Source: Ectothiorhodospira haloalkaliphila ATCC 51935
GTDB taxonomy: Bacteria; Pseudomonadota; Gammaproteobacteria; Ectothiorhodospirales; Ectothiorhodospiraceae
DNA length: 64,000 nucleotides
Direction of reading: 5' to 3'
Assembly (NCBI RefSeq): GCF_000633935.1
Contig: NZ_KK214996.1
Location: 494,928 to 558,927, forward strand
Shown here: one piece after another, positions 9,648 through 64,000 of the stretch
Numbering within the stretch: the stretch's first letter is position 1
Layout: the number at the start of each line of letters is the position of its first letter
The notes under the pieces: model-generated
What the model was told of the DNA's origin: nothing
The model's input: only the letters and a program-made list of their open reading frames with translations
The model's database searches: none
Program-made: the position numbers and the translations under genes

Positions 9648-10784
9648 TCAGGAGGCGCGGGCTCGCATCATGTCAATGAACCGGTCGAAACCCGGGGCCA
9701 CGTCGGCAGGACCGGGGGAGGCCTCCGGGTGACCCTGAAACGTCTGTACCGGGCGGTCGGTGAGCTCGACGCCCTGCAGGGTACCGTCAAACAGGGAGCG
9801 GTGAGTGGGCCGTACGTTGTCCGGCAGTTGGGCATCATCCAGGGCAAAGCCATGGTTCTGACTGGAGATCATCACCCGCCCGGTGGCCAGATCCTGCACC
9901 GGATGGTTGGCACCGTGGTGGCCGAACTTCATCTTCATGGACTGCGCCCCGACAGCGAGGCCCAGCAACTGATGCCCCAGGCAGATACCGAGAATGGGCA
10001 GGTTCTTCTGCTCCAGCAGCTCGCGGATGGCGGTGATGGCGTAGTCGCAGGGCTCCGGGTCGCCGGGCCCATTGGAGAGCAGCACGCCGTCGGGTTTCAG
10101 GGCCAGCACGTCGGCCGCCGGAGTCCGGGCCGGCACCACCGTCACGCGGCAACCCCTGTCCACCAGCATGCGCAGGATATTGCGCTTGGTGCCGAAGTCG
10201 TAAGCCACCACGTGATGGGGCTGTGCTTGCGGTGCCTTGCGGTAGCCCTCGCCCAGCACCCAGGTACCTTCATTCCAGGTGTAGGTCTCCGGGGTGGTGA
10301 CCTCGCTGGCCAGATCCAGGCCCTTGAGGCCCTGGAAGCCCCGGGCGGCTTCCAGGGCCTTTCGTTCATCCACCTCGCCGGCCATGATGCAGCCGTTCTG
10401 GGCGCCCTTCTCGCGCAACAGACGGGTGAGGCGGCGGGTATCCACACCGCCGATGGCCACCACGCCGTGGCGTACCAGATAATCGGGCAACGTCTCGGTG
10501 GCGCGCCAGTTGGACATGCGCGAGGGCACATGACGCACAATCAGGCCGGCCGCATGGGCGCGGTCGGATTCCTCGTCCTCGGGGTTGACCCCGGTGTTGC
10601 CGATATGGGGGTAGGTCAGCGTGACCAGCTGACGGGAGTAGGAGGGATCCGTGAGGATTTCCTGGTATCCGGTCATGGCGGTATTGAACACCACCTCACC
10701 CACGGTGAGACCTTCGGCGCCCACGGCATGACCGTGAAAGAGGCTGCCATCTTCCAATGCCAACAAGGCGGGTGTGGTTTTCAA
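9648..10784 (-). CDS. carA: Carbamoyl-phosphate synthase, small (glutamine amidotransferase) subunit
   Basis: CarA hydrolyses glutamine and passes ammonia to CarB. The class I amidotransferase domain carries the nucleophile in [13 protein letters not shown], the HGANHPV segment and the catalytic His-Glu in [11 protein letters not shown]. The start is uncertain: a GTG at 10799 lacks a good ribosome-binding site, while a TTG at 10784 follows GGAGGT closely and gives an N-terminus ([14 protein letters not shown]) that aligns with E. coli CarA. I chose the TTG, giving 378 residues. dapB is upstream at about 150 bp on the same strand. Confidence 0.95.
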
Positions 10785-10932
10785 GCTGACCTCCGACACG
10801 CATACAGAAGGGGCGGGACGAGACCAGCCCGACCAGCCCGGATAGGATTAGACAACAACGTAAGGATGGGTCAGATAGTAGCGGATCAGGCCCGGGGGTG
10901 TCCAATGCAGCCCCCGTCAACACCGCCTGAAA

Positions 10933-12890
<1,958 letters not shown>

Positions 12891-51218: not shown

Positions 51219-51610
51219 CCGCCTGCGGGTCCACCAGGGTTTGTCGCTGGGCCCGGCTCAACGACCGAGCCTGCGCGATAAAAAATCCCGTTCCACCGTC
51301 AGCTTGCCGATCTCACGGTACAGGGTGTCGATCTCCTCCTGGGTCTTCTGGGCCGCCTTGCCCCCGCCCTTGCCCTCGAAGATCCCCGTCGCCTTGTCCA
51401 GCAACTCACGCCGCCACTGACTCACCATGGTCGGATGGATCTCGAAGCGGGCTGCCAGCTCCGAGGTGGTCTGCTCCCCTTTGAGGGCCTCAAGGGCCAC
51501 CTTGGCCTTGAAGTCAGCGCTGTATTGCTTGCGTTTCCTGCTCATGATCAGATTCTCCTGTCGGAATGATCAGAGCTTAACCCCTGGTCCGAATTTTGGG
51601 GTCCACCTCA
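51219..51610 (-). mobile_element. IS3-family insertion sequence remnant
   Basis: An intact orfA and one terminal sequence remain. The outer end near 51610 reads TGAGGTGGACCCCAAAATTC on the minus strand, a typical IS3-group terminus beginning TG. After orfA, another frame encodes LSRAQRQTLVDPQAVDA, matching the start of orfB, but breaks into ychJ at about 51219. The rest of orfB and the other end are missing, so the element cannot move by itself. Confidence 0.85.
51258..51545 (-). CDS. IS3-family transposase OrfA
   Basis: The 95-residue product starts MSRKRKQYSADFKAKVALEA after AGGAG. It has a helix-turn-helix (TTSELAARFEIHPTMVSQWR) and a leucine-zipper-like C-terminal region ending LTVERDFLSRRLGR, the classic OrfA layout. 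In intact IS3 elements, programmed frameshifting fuses OrfA to OrfB; OrfB is truncated here, so the protein is probably non-functional for transposition. Confidence 0.93.
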   Translation of the reverse strand: MSRKRKQYSADFKAKVALEALKGEQTTSELAARFEIHPTMVSQWRRELLDKATGIFEGKGGGKAAQKTQEEIDTLYREIGKLTVERDFLSRRLGR

Positions 51611-52098: not shown

Positions 52099-53058
52099 TC
52101 ATCGTCGAGGCAGCTCTCTGCCCTTCACGAGAACCTCCTGACCTGTTTCAAGCCGGTAGGAGTCTGGAAAGAAATGCACAAGCCAGAGTTTGACCACGCG
52201 CCAGACCTGCGCGTACTCTTCTTCCGATCCCGTGCCGCCAAGGCTGGCAGCCAGAAACTCGTGAGCTTTCGTGTCCGTCAAACCGGCCGCCGCCAGCTTG
52301 TCTACCTCTGCAAGCAGCGGCATCTGTTTCAAGATGCCCGCCACATAGGCTGTGAAGAGATCCTGCGTCAGCCCCTGAGGCGGTGACAGCGCCGCCAGAT
52401 CCGCCTGAGCCGCCTCGAACGCGCTGGTCACCATCGTATCGGCGCCGCGCCCGCGATAGACCTGCCAGAGGCGGTCCGGTGTCGGGCATCGCGGTACCCA
52501 CAAGGTCTGCTCAACCTCCGTCGCAACATCGTCTTCAACCTCCGGAAGCCGACGCGGGGTTTTGTCTTTTTTCAGGTCATCGGCCTGCCGGCGAATGCGG
52601 TCGCGCAACTCTTCAGTGGCTTGCACGGCGGAGCCCAGCAGCGCGTGTTCCCATTCGGCCAGCCCTTCGAGCTCGGCCGGAAGGGCGACAAGCAACTCGA
52701 CATTGGACGGTGTGTGCCAGCCGAGGCCTCGCGCTGTAAGGTTGGCAGAACCGACGAGACAGTCCCTGCCGTTCGAATAGTATTTCGCATGCAGGTGCGG
52801 ATGGACCAGAAGGCGTCCGCCGCGCGCGCCGGCGATGTCCTCGAGGATTTCGAGATCACAGACGCCGGAGGCGATGTCCTCGGGAAGCCAGCGCGTGACA
52901 CAGATGCATTCCGACACCGTCTCGGGGACGGCATGGAGCAACCGGCGCAAGGTCGGGGATTTGATGTACGGCGCTGCTATGACCACCCGGTCGTTAGCGG
53001 CCCTGACAAGTTCGAGAATACCGTCGCCGGGAAGGACAACCGCCATGTCATTCGTCAT
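52099..53058 (-). CDS. Phospholipase D-family nuclease-like protein (putative SspH/effector)
   Basis: The 319-residue protein has one HKD-type motif: H90-A-K92 in HLHAKYY, followed by LVGSANLTARGL (Gly-Ser-x-Asn). The spacing to the acidic residue is not canonical, as in other defence-linked PLD proteins. A single motif implies a dimer if catalytic. The N-terminal half is the PLD fold; the C-terminal half (about 160-319) is unassigned, with an acidic, charged stretch near 150-170. It overlaps the GHKL ATPase gene by 11 bases; an alternative ATG at 53046 exists. PLD proteins act as nucleases in other systems (for example DISARM DrmC is PLD-like). Here it is the last gene of the island and probably cuts DNA, but this is inference. 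Confidence 0.83.
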   Translation of the reverse strand: MTNDMAVVLPGDGILELVRAANDRVVIAAPYIKSPTLRRLLHAVPETVSECICVTRWLPEDIASGVCDLEILEDIAGARGGRLLVHPHLHAKYYSNGRDCLVGSANLTARGLGWHTPSNVELLVALPAELEGLAEWEHALLGSAVQATEELRDRIRRQADDLKKDKTPRRLPEVEDDVATEVEQTLWVPRCPTPDRLWQVYRGRGADTMVTSAFEAAQADLAALSPPQGLTQDLFTAYVAGILKQMPLLAEVDKLAAAGLTDTKAHEFLAASLGGTGSEEEYAQVWRVVKLWLVHFFPDSYRLETGQEVLVKGRELPRR

Positions 53059-54883
53059 CCTCTTCGGTGAGGAAGAAGCGCGCCATCTTTCCCCATTCCT
53101 GCCGCATCTCGAACAGCCGGTTCTTCTGCCGAACTTCCTCCATCTCGTAGCGCGCCCAAGCGGCGAACAGCAGCTCCAGCGTGTCGGCAGCCGTGTGAAT
53201 CCGCTCCATCAACTCGGCATCGGTCTCGTCGCCGATCTGGGGTCGCAGCGATTCAATCAGTTGGTCGTAAAAGGGATGGTTGCTATTGAAGACGACTTCA
53301 GTCAGCCCGCCTTGTTTGTGTTCGACATTGAAGAACGCATAACCTTCCATCGACTTTTCAAGGAACAGGACCTTCCGCTTGCGCGTGAAAGTCGCTTCGG
53401 CGATTTCCCGGGCAACGTCCTGACGGTAGTGTTTGTCCTCCATCAGGTCTTTCTCGAGATCGTCGCGATCCTTCTCCGTGAACTCTTCGCGGTCAGACTC
53501 CGTCTCGTGTCCCTGTTCAGCGCGCTCGCGGAATTTTGTCGTGGCTAGGTCGGAAACGTCAGGCTCGTCATGCCTGTCTTCTTTCGTCCGACGTCCGACA
53601 TTCTGTTTCTTGAGGCGTTTGCGCACCTCCTGAATCTGGTCGCGTATGTGATCGACGATGGGCAGCAGAATCGCGCGCGGATCGCCTTCGCCCTGTATGC
53701 GTTCCTGAAACTCCGACCGCGATTCGCCGGGATTGGCTTCGGCCTTCCAGTCGAACTGGGCCATATGCGAGAAGATCGTCGCGCTTTGCTTGGTGTTGGT
53801 AACGCCGAACACCTCGTCGAGCGTCGAGGGAAACTCGACCTCGACGCCCCACCAGCGTTCGGTCGGGTCGTAGCTATTGGTCCATGCGGGATCAAGGTCC
53901 AGTTCGCGGCCCTCGCGGACGATTGACAGGCCGATGTTCTTAGCGGCGTGTTTGCCGTAGGGCTTCGAGCCGCGGTCGCTCCTGTCTTCCGGCACGGTTT
54001 CTTCCCGCGCCCAGCTCATGCGGACCACGACATCGTGCTTTGCGCCGTCATAGTCGATGGAGAATACCTCGTCCGCGCCACCCCAGGGCTGAAACATCGG
54101 CTCCGTGTTGAACGGGGCGGGGGTCGATGAATCGCGCATCAGGTAGAGCGGGTCGTTGACGCGCACCGGTTCGTCGAAGGTAGGTTCACCCTCGTCTTCG
54201 GGCAATGCCAGGAGCCGGATCGAAAGGCGTCCGTCGTCGATGAATTTCCGGTACATACGCCCGACAAGTGATTCTGTGTGGCGCAGCGTCGCCTGCGCGC
54301 CGCGCCAGCTCAGGCGATGATCGTCGAAATTCGTCCAGAGCACGAGCGTGCCGGTCGTCTCGACGTCGTCGGAACGGGCGCGCCATTCATCGGGAAGCGG
54401 TTTGTGCGCAGGGGCCGGAACCGCATACAGCCGCCGCCCTTCGATTTCATCGACATCGAGATAGGAATACATGGCATTGTCCGGACCGTTCTGCCATGTC
54501 CAGACTTCCACCCGGCGACACTGCGAAATCGACGAGTTCGGCAGGCCCATACCGAAACGGCCGATACCCTTCCGGTCCGTCAGATGCGTGCCGTTTCCGA
54601 ACTGAAGGGCGAGACGCAGCGTCTCGGGGGTCATGCCGTCGCCGTTGTCCAGGATGCCGATTGCCTGAATCCTCCGGCTGGCGCGTTCGTTGACCTGCCG
54701 ATACCCTTCAAGGCAGATCACCTCGACATTGCCGGCGTTCGCCTGAACGGAATTGTCGATCAACTCCGCAAGCGCGTACGCGGTGTTCTTGTAGCCGCTG
54801 TCGCGCATGGCCTTCACGGCCAGTTCAGGCGGAATGATTTCTCCATCGAGCCTTTGCGACTCAGCAGCTTCTGTCAGGCTCAT
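53048..54883 (-). CDS. GHKL (Hsp90/MutL-type) ATPase of defence module
   Basis: The start at ATG 54883 is chosen because GGGAGG lies about 10 bases upstream; it gives 611 residues. The Bergerat-fold motifs are clear: N-box AELIDNSVQ (Glu40, Asn44), G1 box DNGDGM (79-84) and G2 box GIGRFGMG (106-113). The C-terminal half is highly charged with a probable coiled coil (about 430-520) and an acidic end (TEEDDE). I cannot match the C-terminal region to a named domain. It overlaps the helicase gene by 23 bases and the PLD gene by 11 bases. GHKL ATPases are recurrent in defence islands, probably as ATP-driven sensors or clamps. Confidence 0.9.
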   Translation of the reverse strand: MSLTEAAESQRLDGEIIPPELAVKAMRDSGYKNTAYALAELIDNSVQANAGNVEVICLEGYRQVNERASRRIQAIGILDNGDGMTPETLRLALQFGNGTHLTDRKGIGRFGMGLPNSSISQCRRVEVWTWQNGPDNAMYSYLDVDEIEGRRLYAVPAPAHKPLPDEWRARSDDVETTGTLVLWTNFDDHRLSWRGAQATLRHTESLVGRMYRKFIDDGRLSIRLLALPEDEGEPTFDEPVRVNDPLYLMRDSSTPAPFNTEPMFQPWGGADEVFSIDYDGAKHDVVVRMSWAREETVPEDRSDRGSKPYGKHAAKNIGLSIVREGRELDLDPAWTNSYDPTERWWGVEVEFPSTLDEVFGVTNTKQSATIFSHMAQFDWKAEANPGESRSEFQERIQGEGDPRAILLPIVDHIRDQIQEVRKRLKKQNVGRRTKEDRHDEPDVSDLATTKFRERAEQGHETESDREEFTEKDRDDLEKDLMEDKHYRQDVAREIAEATFTRKRKVLFLEKSMEGYAFFNVEHKQGGLTEVVFNSNHPFYDQLIESLRPQIGDETDAELMERIHTAADTLELLFAAWARYEMEEVRQKNRLFEMRQEWGKMARFFLTEEDDE

Positions 54884-56519
54884 CCCAAACGTCCTCCCAG
54901 TTCTTGAATGCGTCGGCCACGCTGCCAAAGCCAGGCAAGTGCGGATCGACAACCGTTACAATCTCGGCCTCGTCATTTCCACCGGCCCGCGTGCCGCGCG
55001 TCGCCCTGCCGACCATCTGGCTGTAAAGCACAAGCGACCGTGTCGGGCGCGCGATGACGGCTGCACTCGTCGCGGGCGCGTCGAATCCGGTGGTCAACAC
55101 ACCGTAGTTTACAACCACCATAGCGCGATTATCTTTACTTTTGAAACGCCTGATTACTCTTTCGCGTTCCGCTGTATTGCTTTGACCGGTTACAACAAAT
55201 GCTTCATGTCCGCGTATGGACAAGATCGCCGTAAGCACGCGCGCGTTCTCCACCGATGGCGCGAATACGATGACGCGGCGATGCCGCGTCATCAGGTCTT
55301 CGACTGCGGACAGGATTTTCAGGTTGCGCTGCGTGTCCGTACCCAGACGCTCCAGAATCTGTTCCGGCACGTCGATCGCGGATGAGAGCGCATTGACATC
55401 GTTCTCGCTCAGCGTGAGCCCCGCATCGGAATTTAGTGTGCGGAAGGTTGGGCGCGCAAGATATTTCTGGTCGATCAGGAAAGTGACGGGGTCGTCGTAA
55501 CCTTCGACTTCGAGCGTGACCTTACGGCCGTCGAAATAATCCGAAAGCTTGCGGTCCTCGCCGATATCCGACCAGCTTCGTCCGGGCGTCGCCGTGAGGC
55601 CCAGCAAGGCGTTGTGCGGCCGCTTGCTGTAGAGGGCCGTAAGGATCGCCGCGTATGTCGGCGCAATCGCCTGGTGAGCCTCGTCGATAATCGTCAACGA
55701 GACGCGGTCGGCCAGACGCAACAGGGTTGCGGCATCGCGGTTGTCGAGCGCCGACATCTTGGCGAGGCCGGAAACGATCACACCGTCCTGTATGTCGAGA
55801 ACATCCGGTCTCCTGTGTCCCCAGAAGCGGACGAGTGCGGTTTCCCGATTACCGAGAAACTTCCATGCATTCTCGAACTCGCCCGCGGCTTGGTCCAGAA
55901 GTTCGGCATTCTGGGCGAGCCAGCAGACGACGGTCGGCTCGCTCCGGCGCAGATGTTCCGCCACGATGTGCATGGCCGTGCGGGTCTTGCCCGCGCCTGT
56001 CGGCATATGAAGAATGACCTTGCGCGGCGCGTCGCCAAGCGCATGCACCACACGCTCGGCAGCGGCACGCTGGTGATCGAACAGCGCGTATCCGGCGGAT
56101 GCCTTCGTGGCGTCCGGCGCCGAGTCTGCCGGCGCGCGAACGTCCCGGACCACGCCGAAGAACGAGTACAACACAGCCAGCGCCGCAGAATCGGCGGCGG
56201 CGACGCAGAGATCGTCGTATAGCGTGCGGCCGTCTTTCGCGCCGAGATGCCCGCCCAGCTCGCGCGCCTTGGATAAGGGCAGCATGCGGATGATGCGGCT
56301 GCGCATTTCCGGGTCGCGCAACGCTTCGGAGGGTTCGACAAGGTTGACGGCAAGCTCCCCGAGCCGGGTGCCGGAGTCCAGTTCGGGGTCGAGCCCCCGA
56401 AGCGTATCCACGATCGACGGACCGATCACCTCGCGCAACGCAGATGCCTTGGCGTTGCGCAACAGGGTTTGAAGGGCCATGCCCGGTACGGTGTCAGGCG
56501 TGTGGGTCGATCTGGTCAT
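54861..56519 (-). CDS. SF2 DEAH-box helicase of defence module
   Basis: The 552-residue protein contains a complete superfamily 2 core: Q-like ALFDHQ (about 145-150), Walker A HMPTGAGKTRT (171-181), DEAH box IIDEAHQ (277-283), motif III GLTATPGR, then motifs V and VI with GVLTTGFDAP and QMVGRATRG near residue 500. An N-terminal region of about 140 residues is not recognisable. The start is uncertain between ATG 56519 and ATG 56480, neither with a strong ribosome-binding site. It begins 90-129 bp after the DGQHR gene, the widest gap in the island, and is coupled to the GHKL gene downstream. The likely role is DNA translocation or unwinding for the effector module. Confidence 0.92.
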   Translation of the reverse strand: MTRSTHTPDTVPGMALQTLLRNAKASALREVIGPSIVDTLRGLDPELDSGTRLGELAVNLVEPSEALRDPEMRSRIIRMLPLSKARELGGHLGAKDGRTLYDDLCVAAADSAALAVLYSFFGVVRDVRAPADSAPDATKASAGYALFDHQRAAAERVVHALGDAPRKVILHMPTGAGKTRTAMHIVAEHLRRSEPTVVCWLAQNAELLDQAAGEFENAWKFLGNRETALVRFWGHRRPDVLDIQDGVIVSGLAKMSALDNRDAATLLRLADRVSLTIIDEAHQAIAPTYAAILTALYSKRPHNALLGLTATPGRSWSDIGEDRKLSDYFDGRKVTLEVEGYDDPVTFLIDQKYLARPTFRTLNSDAGLTLSENDVNALSSAIDVPEQILERLGTDTQRNLKILSAVEDLMTRHRRVIVFAPSVENARVLTAILSIRGHEAFVVTGQSNTAERERVIRRFKSKDNRAMVVVNYGVLTTGFDAPATSAAVIARPTRSLVLYSQMVGRATRGTRAGGNDEAEIVTVVDPHLPGFGSVADAFKNWEDVWDEPDRSC

Positions 56520-56609: not shown

Positions 56610-57872
56610 TCACCTGATCTTTTCCGGCAATTCAGCCGCATCATCGCCGGTTTCTCTTTGATACCTCTCAAGCAATGTCGCTTCAGTGTAGTTCTTTGCG
56701 TTCTTCCCGACCATGTACAAAAGAACTTCACGAATAGTCACCTTGTGGCCGTTGAGCATGATCTTTTTATTCGGCTCCCACATGAGCCACCGAAACGGTT
56801 CTTCATCGAGGCTATCGGGCAACTCGGCTGCCAGCTTGGCGGCCCGCGCCAGGCTCATATCCTTCGTGAAGCGGGCGATCACACGAGTCATGATTTCCAG
56901 TCCGATCGGCCGAAACAGGACATGCCCGCCATGATTCCCACGATACTTCTTGACCACCGGTTCGGTGTTCTTCGCGCTGAAAAATTCGTCCAGCGCTTTG
57001 AAATTCTTTCTGAGCTGAAGGAAATAGCTTTCCGCGAACCTCAAATATTTATCCAGCGTCTGGTCGTCGGCACGGACCCTCTGCAAATCCGCCTTCTGCT
57101 CTCTCAAATCCGAATACGCGTTGGTAAACAGGATCGTCAGCACGTCGTAGAGGTTGGCGATTGTCGTTAAGCTCGTCGTGTTGGCGGTCGGCATGTTGTT
57201 GCTGGCGACAAAAGCGAGCCTGTTGTCTGCGAAAAGCTTCGTTTCTTCAATGAGTCGCCTTACGCAAATGGCCATGACATCGTCTTCATCGAGGGCGATG
57301 ATTTCCCCCTTGGAAACGGGTCGTGCCGTCTTGTTCAAGGTCGTGAACAACCGGCGTGTGCGCTCCAATCCTTTTTTGGTGTCCTTGTGTCCGACGAATA
57401 TGACGGAGAGTTCATCATAGGGGTCGTTGTCCAGACCGTCTTTCACAGCCTTCTTGATGCCCGCCAGACGATGCTGACCGTCAAGCGCAAAAAGCTTCTC
57501 CTGTCCCGTCAGCGTCAGGAAGCCGACAGAGGAAACCGTATCCTCGGTCAGGTTCTTCAACTCATCCGGGGCGGTCTTGCTCCGAACATCCGAAAGGGCG
57601 TGCCAGTTCGGCTGGCCGCCGTATGTAGCAATGACAAGGGAATTGAAGAAGCGCTCGGGCTGCCTCTTGAGATAATCCGCTATCTGTGCGGCACGGCCTC
57701 TCTTGAGGTGTCTTTGGATCATGTCCGAAAGCTCTTCGTTCTCGTGGATTTCCTCCGCGAAGTTGACGCGGGAACTCAATTCCCCCACGTCCATAAGGCA
57801 TGAATAGAAAACCCAGTCGCCCATGACGCCACGGAGGGCCGGCAGTACGATTTTCTTGTGCTTTTTCGCCAT
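56610..57872 (-). CDS. DGQHR domain protein (DndB-like)
   Basis: The 420-residue protein carries the diagnostic FALDGQHRLAGI (DGQHR at residues 131-135). LSVIFVGHKD and FTTLNKTARPVSKGEIIALDEDD follow, typical of the DndB/DGQHR family. DndB is a transcriptional repressor of dnd genes in some double-strand phosphorothioation systems. A DGQHR gene is not part of the core SspABCD set, so its presence here is notable. Its ATG overlaps the GIY-YIG stop by one base (TAATG) and GGAGGG lies 10 bases upstream, so the two are coupled. A regulatory role or a DNA-contact role are both possible. Confidence 0.9.
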   Translation of the reverse strand: MAKKHKKIVLPALRGVMGDWVFYSCLMDVGELSSRVNFAEEIHENEELSDMIQRHLKRGRAAQIADYLKRQPERFFNSLVIATYGGQPNWHALSDVRSKTAPDELKNLTEDTVSSVGFLTLTGQEKLFALDGQHRLAGIKKAVKDGLDNDPYDELSVIFVGHKDTKKGLERTRRLFTTLNKTARPVSKGEIIALDEDDVMAICVRRLIEETKLFADNRLAFVASNNMPTANTTSLTTIANLYDVLTILFTNAYSDLREQKADLQRVRADDQTLDKYLRFAESYFLQLRKNFKALDEFFSAKNTEPVVKKYRGNHGGHVLFRPIGLEIMTRVIARFTKDMSLARAAKLAAELPDSLDEEPFRWLMWEPNKKIMLNGHKVTIREVLLYMVGKNAKNYTEATLLERYQRETGDDAAELPEKIR

Positions 57873-58393
57873 TACCGGAACGCCCTCCGTTTTTGCTTTG
57901 TATCGGCTTCAAGGTCTCCCTCGGAGAACGGCGGCATCAGCGCCGTGTTGAGCTGTTTTTCGAGCGCCTGCAAATCATTTGAGGAAATATCATCGTCGAT
58001 GGGAGCGAAATAGAACCGCAGCACCTGATGCCAGGTTCCGATCATCCGTGCTATGCGTGCGCGTTTCTTGACCTTTCTGGCATTGAGATACTCCTTATAC
58101 CGGTCCCTCAGCGAGCGTTCGGAATCGCGTCCTGCGATTCCAATGTAGAGAACGTACCCGTGGGGCGGTAGAACAGCATTATTCCTGCAAATCGCGAAAG
58201 CGTAGATACCTCGCTTGTCAGCAGGAACCTTTTCCAGCTCTTCGTCACCGTAGCTGATGGAGTCCCACGCAAGGGCCTCGATTGCGTGCTCATTCGCCAT
58301 CATCTTGTCTGGCGACAAAGTGACGGGCACCGTGTACTTGGCGATTTCCTCGGTTGCCTCGTTTGCAAAATCTATCAAGGAGTCCAGGTCCAA
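57872..58393 (-). CDS. GIY-YIG domain protein, putative nuclease
   Basis: The 173-residue product has the two hallmark strands RGIYAFAI (residues 61-68) and YVLYIGIAGRD (80-90), then a helix with RSLRDRYKEYL supplying the conserved Arg, and E145 in LQALEKQLN in the metal-binding position. The catalytic set (two Tyr, Arg, Glu) thus looks complete, suggesting a single-strand-cutting endonuclease domain. The first about 55 residues are unassigned. The start is TTG at 58393, 21 bases after the sspD stop; an internal ATG at 58303 is an alternative but lacks a ribosome-binding site. It lies inside the ssp operon and is coupled to the DGQHR gene. Confidence 0.85.
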   Translation of the reverse strand: MDLDSLIDFANEATEEIAKYTVPVTLSPDKMMANEHAIEALAWDSISYGDEELEKVPADKRGIYAFAICRNNAVLPPHGYVLYIGIAGRDSERSLRDRYKEYLNARKVKKRARIARMIGTWHQVLRFYFAPIDDDISSNDLQALEKQLNTALMPPFSEGDLEADTKQKRRAFR

Positions 58394-58414: not shown

Positions 58415-59251
58415 TTATTTGTGACACGCCAGACAGACTTTGGCCTTGCCGTACAGGTCGTCGATATCCAGCGGCTCGCTGTCCGGCCGGAGCGGGTTCG
58501 GCTGAACCTTCGACTTCATGCGGGCAAGCCGTTGTTCGTGCTCTTCCCTGATCTGCGCGACGCGCTCCGGCTGCTGCAGCTCTTCGAGAGATTCGCCCTG
58601 GCTCCAGGTGAACGGGGAACCGTGTTCGACAGCGTCCTTCTCATACGCTTTAGCCTCTTCGAATGCGTCCGGGTGTTGCTCCTTAAGCCGCACCCATTCA
58701 ATTTTCTGCTGGAAGAAGCAGAAGGTGCAGCCGCTGCGGGTCCGCCACTCGTAATATTTCGGCAAGCCGAGCCCGGCCCCTTCCAGGACATCGAGGACGC
58801 CGGCCTTGTCGATTCCGGCTTCCTTGAACGGCAGCTTCACGATCAGCTTGTCATGCTTCGAGGAATACCCGTCACGGTATTCCTCGTCACTGCGGATGGC
58901 GACGTAGCTGTACACCGTAATGCCGTCGTCGAGCATTGGGCGTAGCCAGCGCTCGAACGGGCGAAGCTTGAGCTGCCGCGTGCACCAGCGCGTCTGGGGC
59001 GACGGCAGGAAATCATTGTACTGCTTGAGCCAGAAATCGAAGTCGCGGTCGGGATTCAGTCGCAATATCGGTTGCCCGAGAAAGCCCTCCAGCCGCCCGA
59101 GATATTCGTAGACTTCGGGCAGCTCTTTGCCGGTGTCCGTGAAGAAATATTCGATTTTCAGCTCAGGAAGATGCTGACGCATGTAGACGGCAAGAGCCGC
59201 GCTGTCGCGGCCCCCGGAAAGACCAAGGACGTGTCTCACAGGACCGTTCAT
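58415..59251 (-). CDS. sspD: Phosphorothioation sulfurtransferase SspD (PP-loop, DndC-like)
   Basis: The 278-residue product belongs to the PAPS-reductase/ATP-pyrophosphatase family with the PP-loop LSGGRDSAAL (SGGRDS at 12-17) and FTDTGKELPE. Cysteines C90 (RWCTRQLK), C175/C178 (SGCTFCFF) and C273/C276 (KVCLACHK) could hold an Fe-S cluster, as in DndC/SspD. It would activate the DNA phosphate and insert sulfur. The ATG at 59251 overlaps the sspC stop by one base (TGATG); the TTG three bases earlier is a less likely start. The sspB-sspC-sspD order is that of the single-strand phosphorothioation system. Confidence 0.92.
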   Translation of the reverse strand: MNGPVRHVLGLSGGRDSAALAVYMRQHLPELKIEYFFTDTGKELPEVYEYLGRLEGFLGQPILRLNPDRDFDFWLKQYNDFLPSPQTRWCTRQLKLRPFERWLRPMLDDGITVYSYVAIRSDEEYRDGYSSKHDKLIVKLPFKEAGIDKAGVLDVLEGAGLGLPKYYEWRTRSGCTFCFFQQKIEWVRLKEQHPDAFEEAKAYEKDAVEHGSPFTWSQGESLEELQQPERVAQIREEHEQRLARMKSKVQPNPLRPDSEPLDIDDLYGKAKVCLACHK

Positions 59252-62200
59252 CAAGACGCAGCTCTTCCTTTCCCGTTCTTCTTGGGCAGTGCAGGCTTTT
59301 GCATGTAGCGCGTGCTCAGTTCCGCCAGCGCAGCGAGAATGATGCTGCGCCTGGTTGTGTCGGATTCGTCGAGCGCCGCTTCGACACGGTCTATGAGCGC
59401 GTTTACGGCTGCGCGGTCCGAGTCCGCAAGATAGAATTCTTCAAGAATCGGCGCGGGCCGTCCGTTCGTGCCGATAACGACGGCCATCGCATGACGCTTG
59501 TCGGGACGGCCCTTGACGCGTGCGTAGGTTTCCGCGCGAAGGAATTTCTGCGCCATATCGGCGACCTCGATCGCTGCCTGGTCAAGGTCGGGATCGACCC
59601 AGTCGCGCGGCGGCTTGTTCGCGGCCAGACTGGCAATCCCCTCGAAACTCTCGTCCGAACCGTCGAAGCGGGCCAGCCGACCGACGAAGGCGTCGAGCCG
59701 GAAGTCGCCGGCGAGCTGTCTGATATTCTCGGCGCGCTCACGCAGCTCCGCGAGAGACTGCGACGAAATGTTCGGCACCTGCAATTCGGCGAGCATCAGG
59801 TCGCGCATGCGATGCAGCATGGACGGATAAGCCTGCACCAGCTCTTCGAGCCCGTCGCGGACACTCTCTATCACCCGGCGCAGATCGGCATCCGTGTCTA
59901 GCGCCACGTCCTCTCCGAGGGTTCCCGGAATATCATCGAACAGGAATCGGTTCGGATCGTGCGCGCGTTTGAACAGGTCGCGAATGCGCGCCGCGTTGGC
60001 GGACAGGCGCATTGTCCGTGTCGTCCAGTTCGGCAACTGCTCGAATATGGACATCAACCCGCGACCAACGTCGATGGGTTCAAGATGCACAAGCTCGTTG
60101 GTCTGATCGAGATCGCGAACGACTTCCGCCATATCCGACAAAAGACGCCGCGCGATATCCGTCAGGTCCATCCAGCGCAACTGGATGACGGTCGCGTCCT
60201 TGGCGAGATAATCGGCATCTACATCGTCGAACCGGACCCTGAAAATTCCCTCGCGGTAAACCGCAAGCTTGTCACGCTGGGACTGGATGAACGCGACGGC
60301 GAGAAGCGGCATCAGGCCGTCTTTGACGCCGAACGGCGGATCGCGCCACAGCTCGAAAATCTCCGAAACGGTCACCGTCCGTTCGGCATTCTTTTTTACG
60401 TATTCGAAGGCGGCCTGCCACATCGGCGCGAGACCGCACGGATCGTCACCGTCCGTGGGCGCAACGAACCGGAACGTCTTGCCCTGCCGGACGTACAGGC
60501 GGGTTTTTTCCAGGATGGAAGCAAACAGCCCGCCTTCGGCCGGGTAGCCATCGATACCGAGCCGCGCGTCGCCTTCATTGACGACCATGCGGTGCAGCAA
60601 CTTGTTCTGCGCCATTACGGCGCTGCCGGACGGCTGTTGCCGGTTGAGCAATTCGTTATGAAGACGCGGGCTCTCGGGGAAGCGGCGGTCCGCCAGTTCC
60701 GAGGCGATGCTGTTCAGATCGGCCTGTTGCAGCCGCTTTTTGTGATGTTTTTTGCGGAACCACAGCGCATTGTCGAAGGCTTTGTGCAGTTCGGTTTCCA
60801 AAAGCGCCTGCAACGCAGCAAGCCGGGCCGAAACCTCCCGTCGGGCAACCTGGTCTCCGGCCAGTTCGGGGTGACTGTTGCTGACGTTTTCCAGCGCGAT
60901 CAGTTCCCGGGCCAGCGGCACGACGGCCCATGACTGTTTGGAAATGCCGACGACGATATCGCCCTTGCCCTTCCCGCTGTGGGAGGCCGCTTCCCGGCAA
61001 AGCTTTTCAGCCCGTCCCTCTTTTTCTCCCTCAATCGGGATCGCCAGCAGAAACTGTCCGATCGAGCCATTTTCCGGCTCAAATCCGGCGGCGAACTCGA
61101 CGATGTCGCTGACCGGCACGATGTTCACATCGAACCACCGCATGGCGCCGGTTTCGTGGTAGTGGCGCTTGGCGAGGATCGGCTGAAGACCGGCAAGCGA
61201 CTTCAGGTGCCCGAAGTCGATCTCGTCGATTTCATCGAGCGCCGTCCGGACGGCCCGTTCGATATCGAAGTCGCTGCCGGCGAAAATGGCGCGGGCGTCG
61301 AGAAACTTTTTGAAGATCGTGAGCGACCAGCCGTCGAGGTCGGAAAGCGCCTTCTCAATTGCCTTTTGCGGCGTGTCGGGAAAGCAGGATTGCAGCAATT
61401 CGGAATTCGGAAGTAGGCCCGAGCGTTCCTTGAACAGGTCGATCACGGCAATGGTCTTGAGCAACCTGACATGCAGCGCATCGCCGCCAAGGGACTCGCA
61501 GCGTTCCAGCACTTCGGCCGCCAGCGCCCACCGGTGTCCGTCAGGCGAAGCCAGTATGGACGGCTCGAGGTTGGCGCGCAGATAGTCCCACAGCCGGTCG
61601 GGGCCGTAGAGTTCGCCGTCCTTCGCATGGTTCAGGAAGTTCTGAAATCCGTGCAGTTCGGATGAATTGAGGAATCCGAAAATACTGCGCTGGTTCTGGC
61701 CGAAACGCCGCCGCGAAATCGGGCCAAGTAGCGCGGCGACGACCGGGTGCAGCGGCCAGCAGTCCTCAAGCATCGAAGCCAGCCGCGAAGCGTCCTCTCG
61801 AGGCCGATCGCGCCGCGCGAATGCGGCGACCGAAGACGCAAGAGCGCCCGGCTTCTTCGCGACATGATCGCTCTCTATCGCACGGGAGATGAGGTCGATT
61901 TGTTCTTCACCCGCCGTATCGACGACAAGGTCGATGAACCGGCCCTGTATCTTCGCCCATTCGTCCCGCATGTCATGCGAGAGCCGGTGCGCGTATTCCT
62001 CAAATGCCTGGTGCAGCACGCCGACGATCAGGAGACGCCCGTTGCTGCGTGAAGCCGCTTCGGCGAGCTGCTGAAGGATGTAGATATCCGAGCCGTCCTG
62101 CGCGGCGGCTTCGAGAAACTTACCCATTTCGTCGATGAAGAGGACAAGCCCGCCATGGGTCTTCGGCTTACATGCGGCCGCGTCGGTAAGCGTCTCTATC

Positions 62201-62649
62201 AGGTTGGTCTCGGTCCATCCGCCGCGCGGTACGCGCGGCACAAGCCCGGCTCTTTTGGCGGCTTCACCTATGACTGTAACGGGATCTGCGCGTGTACCGA
62301 CGACGGGAAGGATGCGCCATCCCTTCGTGCCTGTCGGCAAGGCTTTCCGGATCGTATTCGTCAGGCTCTGCCCGAAAACCTTCGCCGCCTGTTTTTGCAA
62401 TCCGACATCGCCGTTCAACAGCGCGGCCAGCGCAACGGCAAGGCTGGATTTGCCGCTGCCGTAGGGGCCGGTCCAGGTGAATGCGCCCTGTCCGGTCTCG
62501 GACACGTGCCGCGCCATCGTGGCGAGAACTTCCGCTGAGGATTGCGGGCAGGCAAAGCCGTCGAGGGCAGCGGCGTCCCCGAGGTCGGTGTCGATGCGGA
62601 CCGATCTCAGGAAACGGCGGGCGATGCGGACGCGCTCCTTTAGTAGCAT
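59251..62649 (-). CDS. sspC: Large P-loop ATPase SspC
   Basis: The start at ATG 62649 (MLLKERVRIARRFLRSVRID), preceded by AAAGAGG, gives 1132 residues. Walker A is WTGPYGSGKSSLA (GPYGSGKS at 61-68) and Walker B LVLFIDEMGKFLE (Asp173, Glu174). The remaining about 900 residues are largely helical, with no domain I can name. The size and position between a DUF4007 gene and a PP-loop gene identify it as SspC, the ATPase of the SspABCD phosphorothioation complex. It overlaps sspB (TAATG) and sspD (TGATG) by one base each, implying fixed translational stoichiometry. A longer frame upstream to 62766 overlaps sspB and is not used. Confidence 0.9.
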   Translation of the reverse strand: MLLKERVRIARRFLRSVRIDTDLGDAAALDGFACPQSSAEVLATMARHVSETGQGAFTWTGPYGSGKSSLAVALAALLNGDVGLQKQAAKVFGQSLTNTIRKALPTGTKGWRILPVVGTRADPVTVIGEAAKRAGLVPRVPRGGWTETNLIETLTDAAACKPKTHGGLVLFIDEMGKFLEAAAQDGSDIYILQQLAEAASRSNGRLLIVGVLHQAFEEYAHRLSHDMRDEWAKIQGRFIDLVVDTAGEEQIDLISRAIESDHVAKKPGALASSVAAFARRDRPREDASRLASMLEDCWPLHPVVAALLGPISRRRFGQNQRSIFGFLNSSELHGFQNFLNHAKDGELYGPDRLWDYLRANLEPSILASPDGHRWALAAEVLERCESLGGDALHVRLLKTIAVIDLFKERSGLLPNSELLQSCFPDTPQKAIEKALSDLDGWSLTIFKKFLDARAIFAGSDFDIERAVRTALDEIDEIDFGHLKSLAGLQPILAKRHYHETGAMRWFDVNIVPVSDIVEFAAGFEPENGSIGQFLLAIPIEGEKEGRAEKLCREAASHSGKGKGDIVVGISKQSWAVVPLARELIALENVSNSHPELAGDQVARREVSARLAALQALLETELHKAFDNALWFRKKHHKKRLQQADLNSIASELADRRFPESPRLHNELLNRQQPSGSAVMAQNKLLHRMVVNEGDARLGIDGYPAEGGLFASILEKTRLYVRQGKTFRFVAPTDGDDPCGLAPMWQAAFEYVKKNAERTVTVSEIFELWRDPPFGVKDGLMPLLAVAFIQSQRDKLAVYREGIFRVRFDDVDADYLAKDATVIQLRWMDLTDIARRLLSDMAEVVRDLDQTNELVHLEPIDVGRGLMSIFEQLPNWTTRTMRLSANAARIRDLFKRAHDPNRFLFDDIPGTLGEDVALDTDADLRRVIESVRDGLEELVQAYPSMLHRMRDLMLAELQVPNISSQSLAELRERAENIRQLAGDFRLDAFVGRLARFDGSDESFEGIASLAANKPPRDWVDPDLDQAAIEVADMAQKFLRAETYARVKGRPDKRHAMAVVIGTNGRPAPILEEFYLADSDRAAVNALIDRVEAALDESDTTRRSIILAALAELSTRYMQKPALPKKNGKGRAAS

Positions 62650-63608
62650 TAGGCGGCCTCTTTCCCGGGGCGCGAAGCGTAGTCGCCGGGCAGCCTGGAA
62701 AGCGCCGTCTCTTCGCCGATCTCGATGTTGCGGACAACCTGCTTGAGTCCGGCGGTTTCCGACCACCGGAGTGCGCCGTCCGTAGCATCGTCGAGCACAG
62801 CGAGGCGGTCGGCCACGTCGTTCTCGTCGAATTGGAACACGCGCCCCGGACTGCCCGGCGCGTGGGCAATGGCCTCGAAGGACAGCGTGGCGGCGTTGGG
62901 ATAGAAGCGAGACCAGAAATCAACGAGGGCGTAAGCGAATACGCCGTCGCCCAAGGTCGATTTCGGACCGCGCACGAAGCGAAATCCGTCGTTCTTGCCT
63001 ATGGCTTTGATGAGCCCCAACTCCGTCAGCGGTGACTCAAGGGCATCGTCATGCCCGGACTTCCCGGACGGCTGCCGCGCGACGTAGGTGCGAATGAAAC
63101 AGGCCACGTCGTTCTTGAGCGTGGTTTGCGCAACGCGCGACCATCCGCGATCGCTCGCAAGGCGGTCCAGTTTCCGGATCAAGCCGTCTCGCTCAAACGT
63201 AATGGCGGGGTAATGGCTGAACGCCCAGAACCAAGTGGTTCGTTCAGGGTGTGCCGCGAACTGCCAGTGAAGAAGCCAAAGAGTTGCGGGATATTCCATC
63301 CACGGATCGAGTCCACCGGGACCGAACAGCAACCGGCCGAGTTCGGTGGTTTCAACCGTGTTGGTGGCAGGCTCCCGGATAATTCGCGCCGCTTTCGCCC
63401 AATAGCGGATGGAGCCGACCATGTTCTTGCCGACACCGAAACGCGCTATGGCCTCGTCGTCCCAACACGCAGCGCGGTTGTCGGTTTCGGACTCTGTCTC
63501 GGCGACGCGGTCGAACGCCTTTTTCAGCCACCCGTAGCGCAACGGGAAGGTTTCGTGCCCCGAAAACTGCGGGCTGTAGTCATTCTGAAAAAGCGGTCCG
63601 CGCGCCAT
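62649..63608 (-). CDS. sspB: DUF4007 nickase SspB of DNA phosphorothioation system
   Basis: The start at ATG 63608, with GAGGGAG upstream, gives 319 residues. The DUF4007 hallmark FSGHETFPLRYGWLKKAF is at residues 15-32, followed by GVGKNMVGSIRYW and a C-terminal FDENDVADRL. SspB in the described SspABCD system is a DUF4007 protein with nicking activity that opens one DNA strand for sulfur insertion. The upstream in-frame extension to 63674 lacks similarity. It is first in a tightly coupled operon and is divergent from sspA with a 153-bp gap. Confidence 0.93.
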   Translation of the reverse strand: MARGPLFQNDYSPQFSGHETFPLRYGWLKKAFDRVAETESETDNRAACWDDEAIARFGVGKNMVGSIRYWAKAARIIREPATNTVETTELGRLLFGPGGLDPWMEYPATLWLLHWQFAAHPERTTWFWAFSHYPAITFERDGLIRKLDRLASDRGWSRVAQTTLKNDVACFIRTYVARQPSGKSGHDDALESPLTELGLIKAIGKNDGFRFVRGPKSTLGDGVFAYALVDFWSRFYPNAATLSFEAIAHAPGSPGRVFQFDENDVADRLAVLDDATDGALRWSETAGLKQVVRNIEIGEETALSRLPGDYASRPGKEAA

Positions 63609-63644
63609 GTCTCCCTCGGGCTGCTGGATGATGCGTCCAGCTCG

Positions 63645-63674
63645 ACTGTACCCCGAATGGCGTGCTACGGTCAA
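63645..63674 (-). promoter_or_regulatory. Possible promoter for the sspBCD operon
   Basis: On the minus strand TTGACC (63674-63669), an 18-base spacer and TACAGT (63650-63645) loosely fit a sigma-70 promoter. The leader to the sspB start would be about 30 bases. The match at -10 is only partial. Confidence 0.4.
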
Positions 63675-63680
63675 TGCATG

Positions 63681-63697
63681 CTGGAGACGGGCTCCAG
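63681..63697. promoter_or_regulatory. Inverted repeat in the sspA/sspB divergent region
   Basis: CTGGAG-ACGGG-CTCCAG is a 6-bp inverted repeat just upstream of the putative sspB -35 box and about 65 bases before sspA. It could be an operator, for example for the DGQHR protein, but nothing in the sequence proves it. Confidence 0.3.
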
Positions 63698-63761
63698 AAG
63701 CGAGCCGATGCCGGAAAGCGGCAACCCGCAGGGCTTTGAGCCTCTATGTCATTGAGGAAAC

Positions 63762-64000
63762 ATGAAAATCGGAAAAACGATATATCTCGACCATCAGGCG
63801 ACGACTCCGGTCGATGCACGTGTTTTAGCCGAAATGACGCCGTATTTCAGCGAATCTTTCGGCAATCCGCATTCATCGGATCACATCCTCGGGTGGGACA
63901 CATCGCGTGTCGTGGACAATGCAGCCGCGCGAGTCGCGCGGCTGATCGGCGCGGACCCCGATGAGATCATCTTCACCTCTGGGGCGACCGAAGCGAACAA
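63762..64000 (+). CDS. sspA: Cysteine desulfurase of phosphorothioation system, N-terminal part (runs off window)
   Basis: From ATG 63762, after TTGAGGAAAC, the frame encodes [20 protein letters not shown], then [13 protein letters not shown] and [11 protein letters not shown]. This is the N-terminus of a PLP-dependent NifS/IscS-type cysteine desulfurase of the DndA/SspA kind, and the frame stays open to the window end (about 79 codons). It would mobilise sulfur from cysteine as a persulfide for SspD. The PLP Lys and the active Cys are beyond 64000. It is divergent from sspB and completes the SspABCD set. Confidence 0.93.

Follow-up and report, generated by a model that had tools for sequence, protein, structure and literature searches.

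A near-obligate GIY-YIG/DGQHR gene pair accompanies both Ssp- and Dnd-type phosphorothioation loci and is distinct from DndB

Comparative genomics shows that the DGQHR protein gene in the phosphorothioation (PT) cluster of Ectothiorhodospira haloalkaliphila ATCC 51935 belongs to a near-obligate pair with an upstream GIY-YIG gene, that the DGQHR proteins so paired are distinct from DndB, and that the pair accompanies PT systems of both the single-strand (Ssp) and the double-strand (Dnd) type as a mobile and optional accessory. The stretch analysed, here called the window, comprises 64,000 nucleotides, and the following features are given in its coordinates.

52099–53058, minus strand: putative nuclease of the PLD/HKD type (PF13091, E 7e-4, below the cut-off)
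53048–54952, minus strand: MutL/MORC-like GHKL ATPase, MzaB-like (PF13589, 76.7 bits)
54861–56519, minus strand: SF2 helicase (ResIII/DEAD), first gene of a candidate restriction module (PF04851, 79.5 bits)
56610–57872, minus strand: DGQHR protein gene, 420 aa (open reading frame; PF14072, TIGR03187)
57872–58393, minus strand: GIY-YIG nuclease-like protein gene, 173 aa (motif, structure model, distant relative)
58415–59254, minus strand: SspD, PAPS-reductase-type sulfurtransferase (PADLOC SspD, 457.7 bits)
59251–62766, minus strand: SspC, ATPase (PADLOC SspC, 1349.6 bits)
62649–63608, minus strand: SspB, DUF4007 (PF13182, 287.8 bits; PADLOC SspB, 356.7 bits)
63609–63761, no strand: intergenic region between the divergent sspB and desulfurase genes
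63762–64000, plus strand: start of the divergent cysteine desulfurase gene, SspA type (complete in the genome, 395 aa)

Read along the minus strand, the order is SspB, SspC, SspD, GIY-YIG, DGQHR, helicase, GHKL ATPase and PLD-type gene. The ATG at 63608 is the likely SspB start as read from the sequence, the longest open reading frame extending to 63674, and the real SspC start probably lies inside the listed frame. PADLOC recognises an Ssp system in SspB, SspC and SspD, to which the divergent cysteine desulfurase can be added; these matches confirm an earlier note on this DNA, which had placed the DGQHR gene in an Ssp operon. The intact DGQHR motif described there was found at residues 131–135 of the 420, and the coupling to the GIY-YIG gene through TAATG, in which the stop of the one and the start of the other have one base in common, proved to be recurrent: overlaps of one or four bases were counted in 21 of 29 pairs detected by HMM, a recurrence that is not due to chance. 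Further downstream, the GHKL ATPase scores 69 bits against the NCBIfam MzaB model, below its cut-off, and the PLD-type gene gives weak DrmC/ZacB-like matches in PADLOC. A small transposase-like open reading frame (51258–51545; IS3-type by eye) separates the ilv core genes from the Ssp island and is a possible border of the latter. Promoter and terminator scans returned matches at chance level.

A sister family of DndB

The window DGQHR protein passes the Pfam DndB model PF14072 (98.2 bits, cut-off 29.1), as the one such match in its genome, and the NCBIfam DGQHR model TIGR03187 (119 bits, cut-off 58.85); it fails both the DndB equivalog TIGR03233 (56.1 bits, 328 needed) and DGQHR_dnd_1, TIGR04172 (31.2 bits, 450 needed). 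In a 59-row tree, 31 pair-family proteins fall on one side of a branch (support 98/87) and 17 DndB proteins on another, apart from them (support 100/99), and both groups persist in a quick tree computed without six long rows (SH-aLRT 94 for the pair family and 100 for DndB). Profile alignment reveals full-length homology between the two (hhalign probability 99.9 over 363 columns), and they share the DGQHR motif, a QR pair and an F..LN motif. They differ, however, in their diagnostic motifs, which read (I/L)QR, RRLFTTLNK and IALDEDD in the pair family and AQR, QQMFADLN and LYDHRD in DndB, as well as in tree position, in the GIY-YIG partner and in that the pair family coexists with DndB. No cysteine occupies the DndB Cys29 column in the pair family, and many rhizobial-type DndB proteins in our set have valine there.

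On these sequence comparisons the DGQHR protein represents a sister family of DndB and is not DndB itself, membership being ruled out by the equivalog score, the tree and the coexistence of both proteins. The earlier note, which had proposed a phylogeny, called the protein DndB-type; this is not borne out by the two separate, supported groups, or by the genuine DndB found alongside in five Dnd loci. Nor are its kin limited to unrelated DGQHR proteins, since its homology to its sister DndB extends over the full length. Proteins of the TIGR04172 family resemble it in being PT-linked, in carrying DGQHR and in not being DndB, but they form another tree group, and the neighbour of the TIGR04172 gene in locus L041 is membrane-like, so that a GIY-YIG partner was ruled out for them. 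DpdB carries a DGQHR-type domain; it is not among the named references of the 59-row tree, and the window protein has no PADLOC match to it. Like the window protein, DpdB is ParB-like and encoded in a DNA-modification cluster, in its case one for 7-deazaguanine modification (PMC12839542).

A structure model of the DGQHR protein (pLDDT 82.8) comprises a ParB/sulfiredoxin-like N-terminal part (residues ∼16–209) and a helical C-terminal half. Foldseek alone gave no reliable match to it, and in a second structural comparison the best 20 rows all belong to the ParB/Srx superfamily with weak values below the reliability mark of Z 8 (ParB 5.8, the top match, with an rmsd of 3.7 over 92 residues; sulfiredoxin 5.1, SspE 4.0, BrxU 3.8 and Osa 3.0). 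A ParB/Srx fold is nevertheless credible, the Z values being suggestive, in view of the coherence of these weak matches and of published work that places DGQHR-like domains in this fold (PMC4619093). Searches of PDB sequences with the DGQHR and the GIY-YIG profiles returned nothing useful.

The GIY-YIG partner and the constancy of the pairing

The gene at 57872–58393 has no match in Pfam, NCBIfam or PADLOC. Its assignment rests on the motif, on a structure model (mean pLDDT 73, better in the core) and on a distant member of the same pair, in locus L043, that passes the Pfam GIY-YIG cut-off (PF01541, 39.3 bits against 22.6). Compared with known folds, the model has among its first ten rows the UvrC N-domain (Z 8.7, rmsd 2.4 over 83 residues), I-TevI (Z 7.2), Eco29kI (6.0) and Hpy188I (5.7); in single-sequence Pfam searches, weak matches to two GIY-YIG models were obtained for 4/22 and 3/22 partners. 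By motif and predicted fold, the product is a member of the GIY-YIG superfamily. Positions G62, Y64, Y83, G85, R98 and E145 are invariant in 28/28 partners, a count that includes the contig-end copy L067, absent from the 31-row tree, and leaves out L044, which has no GIY-YIG gene, and L003, L013 and L058, in which it is broken or partial (in-frame stop, frameshift and loss of the 5′ part, respectively). The C-terminal asparagine counts among the catalytic residues of GIY-YIG enzymes and is not required for the fold or for the four other positions; it is serine in the window protein, mostly serine in the Ssp branch and asparagine in 8 of the 28 partners. Relative to L001, dN/dS is about 0.08 for both the GIY-YIG and the DGQHR genes.

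The constancy of the pairing is seen in a scan of a genome collection, in which 19 loci (L001–L019) were retrieved with the DGQHR protein alone, yet in all 19 a GIY-YIG gene lies directly upstream. Plasmid and phage collections contributed 10 and 2 records, the close ones being five plasmid records and a Salmonella record filed in the phage collection, and a scan of viral contigs gave nine loci, three of them close. The survey of such pairs that the earlier note had suggested found a GIY-YIG gene directly upstream in 30 of 31 family members, 29 recognised by HMM and L081 by hhalign (86% probability), with L044 as the one member lacking it. The HMM was built from 22 of the same partners, to the exclusion of L003, L013, L043, L058–L060 and L082. 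Such a neighbour was found for none of 17 DndB genes, where adjacency for L015, L053, L055 and L089 rests on 600–790 bases upstream of DndB, and for none of 15 other DGQHR genes, among them four that the tree leaves out (L062, L063, L065 and the second gene of L048); the tree and the count both omit L050 and L051. In the reverse direction, two GIY-YIG queries from different branches each recovered, from 72,556 plasmids, exactly the five that carry the DGQHR family.

The family is rare, as implied by the few strong matches (>200 bits) in sampled groups (3/292, 3/327, 2/330 and 2/239 genomes, each including the centre genome). Among 398 genomes from the phylum, the GIY-YIG profile by itself gave matches in two, one of them the genome of the window, and a DNA search of E. 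coli with the Salmonella pair gave no match. Identity matrices of the GIY-YIG and DGQHR proteins correlate closely over 25 loci (r 0.94); for 13 Ssp loci, however, the correlations of the pair with SspD/SspB (r 0.6–0.7) are about equal to that between GIY-YIG and DGQHR, and this weak Mantel comparison fails to set the pair apart from SspD/SspB.

Phosphorothioation context and neighbouring restriction modules

By context, the 31 pair loci divide into 20 of Ssp type, 7 of Dnd type, two with PT genes elsewhere on the contig (L017 and L058, with DndC at 580 bits or SspD at 368 bits some 25 and 36 kb away) and two, L059 and L060, without established PT genes, neither of which is counted as PT-linked. 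A PT context for these last two was considered and dropped, the SspD-like gene of L059 being a phage-type PAPS reductase (phrog_424). On the tree, at least three switches between Ssp and Dnd are required over 27 loci. The presence of one and the same pair in both PT types, together with these switches, implies that parts have been exchanged and that the pair serves a separate role, in agreement with both suggestions of the earlier note. The pair comes after sspD, on the same strand, in 17 of the 20 Ssp loci, and restriction genes are often on the opposite strand. Genuine DndB adjoins the pair in five Dnd loci (L015, L019, L039, L040 and L090), while three others (L018, L043 and L044) come from genomes with no PF14072 match besides the pair protein. 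Locus L090 (260–17713) holds three DGQHR families in a single PT locus, namely DGQHR_dnd_1, DndB and the GIY-YIG-paired kind, the gene for the last being cut by the contig end.

Other Ssp loci dispense with the pair, for modification as well as beside the same restriction module, which identifies the pair as an accessory. Among 69 plasmids with SspD, four (at most five) carry it and at least 64 do not; a fifth pair plasmid, from Rhizobium sp. NXC14, is of Dnd type and is not among the 40 SspD records listed. Pannonibacter p.BB_2 has the window order SspBCD-helicase-GHKL-PLD without the pair, with the helicase 80 bases after SspBCD on the same strand (identities to the window of 77% for SspD, 45% for the helicase, 47% for the GHKL ATPase and 35% for the PLD-type protein), and the Ssp cluster of Mesorhizobium pOM4 likewise lacks the pair. 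In Candidatus Tenderia (L091) the slot after sspD is taken by an unrelated gene (9876–10964) whose product has a membrane-like N-terminus and a nucleoside-deoxyribosyltransferase-like domain, possibly an alternative accessory effector.

Three kinds of restriction module are found beside the pair: a helicase-GHKL-PLD module (window, L001, L002, L016, L037 and L082), SspFGH (L006, L007, L010, L012 and L038) and Pbe-type genes (L003, L005, L011, L013, L014, L019 and L039). The latter two are anchored by PADLOC matches in L038 (SspF 786 and SspH 2429 bits) and L005 (PbeA 652 bits), the remaining loci being assigned by similarity to genes of L038, L005 or L039. SspFGH was rejected as a name for the window trio, as PADLOC gave no SspF, SspG or SspH match for eight proteins (for the helicase, among the best 25 of 29 families). 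The SF2 helicase, GHKL ATPase and PLD-type genes at 52099–56519 stand beside SspBCD in six pair loci and on two plasmids without the pair, and, being neither SspE nor SspFGH, they are a candidate restriction partner for orphan SspBCD; the module resembles the MORC/paraMORC plus helicase systems predicted previously (PMC2292703).

In L040 and L043 the pair adjoins a gene for a GmrSD-type ParB-HNH protein, so that it is no simple substitute for such a gene. An apparent operon in L043 (9055–13788) comprises DndC, a GmrSD-type (SspE-like) protein, a canonical GIY-YIG protein and the DGQHR protein. Neither PF03235 nor PF07510 was detected in the DGQHR or the GIY-YIG protein of the window, and the window's genome has no GmrSD_N (PF03235) match. 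A DGQQR protein was found in none of the 20 Ssp pair loci, which is not significant; this absence of DGQQR protein/SspE is uninformative, since SspE is rare anyway.

Some loci have additional features. In the two closest relatives, methyltransferase-like open reading frames are inserted after sspC and before sspD (L001, 6066–7323; L002, 7266–8589), a 511-aa frame joining a DndE-like domain to a HerA/TrwB-type ATPase adjoins the pair in L018 (7887–9422), and an Xre/RES toxin-antitoxin pair is found directly upstream of the desulfurase-ssp operon in L016 (2027–3159) and L037 (2252–3375).

Proposed function of the pair

By analogy with SspE and DndI, we propose that the pair may be a two-gene, NTP-switched, PT-associated nuclease rather than a DndB-type repressor, a reading to which we give an even chance. 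The DGQHR protein, related to DndB as a sister and probably of an NTP-binding, ParB/sulfiredoxin-like fold, would be the switch or recognition subunit and the GIY-YIG protein the DNA-cutting subunit, the two being separate, translationally coupled polypeptides with a nuclease of GIY-YIG instead of HNH type. Such a module would cut unmodified incoming DNA and spare PT-marked host DNA; that its two proteins form a complex, hydrolyse NTP, sense PT, cut DNA and act against phages is what we infer for it.

In SspE and DndI, a ParB-type NTPase domain that senses PT is joined within one polypeptide to an HNH nickase, which it gates (PMC9646914, PMC11662687). The pair resembles them in the ParB/Srx-like fold, the DGQ(H/Q)R motif, the link to a nuclease and the occurrence in PT loci of Ssp or Dnd type; it differs in that it consists of two proteins with GIY-YIG in place of HNH, whereas SspE and DndI unite DUF262 and DUF1524/HNH, domains present in neither member of the pair, in one protein, and in that no useful similarity is seen at the profile level. 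The effector reading is favoured by this precedent, by the location of the pair beside such a protein in L040 and L043, and by the copy in L059 (7880–13745), which lies between the portal gene and replication gene A of a P2-like prophage; this gpQ-gpA interval is a documented anti-phage hotspot (PMC9122126). It is weakened by closer kinship with a repressor, as the DGQHR family aligns over its full length with DndB and gave nothing useful against GmrSD proteins with the SspE/DndI-type domain, which makes DndB its nearest characterised relative, and by the place of the pair in the modification operon. A regulator, too, would fit its location after sspD and the frequent placement of restriction genes on the opposite strand.

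Alternatively, the DGQHR protein could be a DndB-like regulator that binds the ssp promoter in an ATP-dependent manner and limits PT, the GIY-YIG protein then being an effector linked to it or a co-regulator. The full-length homology with DndB, itself an ATP-modulated repressor of dnd (PMC4507180, PMC12704722), is in keeping with this, as are the usual position straight after sspD in the modification operon and the three Dnd-type loci where the pair protein is the sole PF14072 protein of the genome; a DndB-like protein has also been reported to bind ATP and GTP, in a survey of ParB folds whose available text does not contain the term GIY-YIG (PMC12704722). However, true DndB is also present in five Dnd loci, one of which has three DGQHR families, none of the 17 DndB genes has a GIY-YIG partner, at least 64 of 69 SspD plasmids manage without the pair, and a nuclease coupled to the start codon would be superfluous for a repressor. 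DndB is encoded by the first gene of dndBCDE, and the window gene instead follows sspD and GIY-YIG. The Salmonella DndB operator TACG-N10-CGTA, which is known from Salmonella only, has no exact copy in the 64-kb window, and its one-mismatch copies (five, 5.75 expected) are at chance level, with none in 63609–63761. A DndB-like repressor role, which the earlier note had entertained, is thus not supported by the coexistence with DndB, the separate tree group or the operator search, and we regard a regulatory function as unlikely.

It is less likely again that the pair assists modification, with the GIY-YIG protein steered by the DGQHR protein to nick or process DNA so that SspBCD or DndCDE can add PT to particular sites or take it away. 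Such a helper would be consistent with the apparent co-transcription of the pair and the modification genes, and the association with three different restriction modules suggests that the pair tracks modification and not any single restriction partner; pair-less Ssp operons, however, are common and complete, and the copy in the P2 prophage hotspot of L059 lacks an established PT modification operon. Least probable, if only by a little, is a back-up suicide module that kills the cell once a phage inhibits the PT system, as proposed for the URI/GIY-YIG nucleases located at the boundaries of Dnd systems (Rakesh et al. 2024, PMC10853773) and in line with the frequent location of the pair at the operon end or in its own unit, since the near-constant DGQHR partner suggests controlled and not indiscriminate action. 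The boundary nucleases described there resemble the pair as GIY-YIG-type nucleases tied to PT genes, but they are described as standalone, and the available text mentions neither a DGQHR partner nor an Ssp context.

To return to the SspE/DndI-like nuclease, a broader version of it is that the pair represents a new class of PT-sensing effector, in which a free-standing DndB-like NTP switch would read the sulfur mark and license a separate GIY-YIG nuclease, mobile between Ssp and Dnd and stackable on SspFGH, Pbe-type or helicase-GHKL-PLD modules; this we advance tentatively, with appreciably less confidence than the nuclease function itself. An early profiling study noted a DGQHR protein co-occurring with Dnd genes (PMC3226654), and in the portions of the literature covered, subscription papers and supplements being outside their scope, no description was found of a GIY-YIG/DGQHR pair or of a DGQHR protein in an Ssp cluster.

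Our results provide a caution for annotation, as RefSeq plasmid records name the pair-family protein DndB and thereby attach the name of a repressor to members of a different family. SspBCD clusters without a recognised restriction partner made up ∼84% in a 2021 survey (PMC8092258), and the pair, found as it is with PT systems of either type, provides a concrete candidate for such a partner. It also offers a direct test of whether one reader and nuclease can use both single- and double-strand PT marks. If it does represent a new effector class, the family would comprise two branches, one of repressors, to which DndB belongs, and one of effectors.
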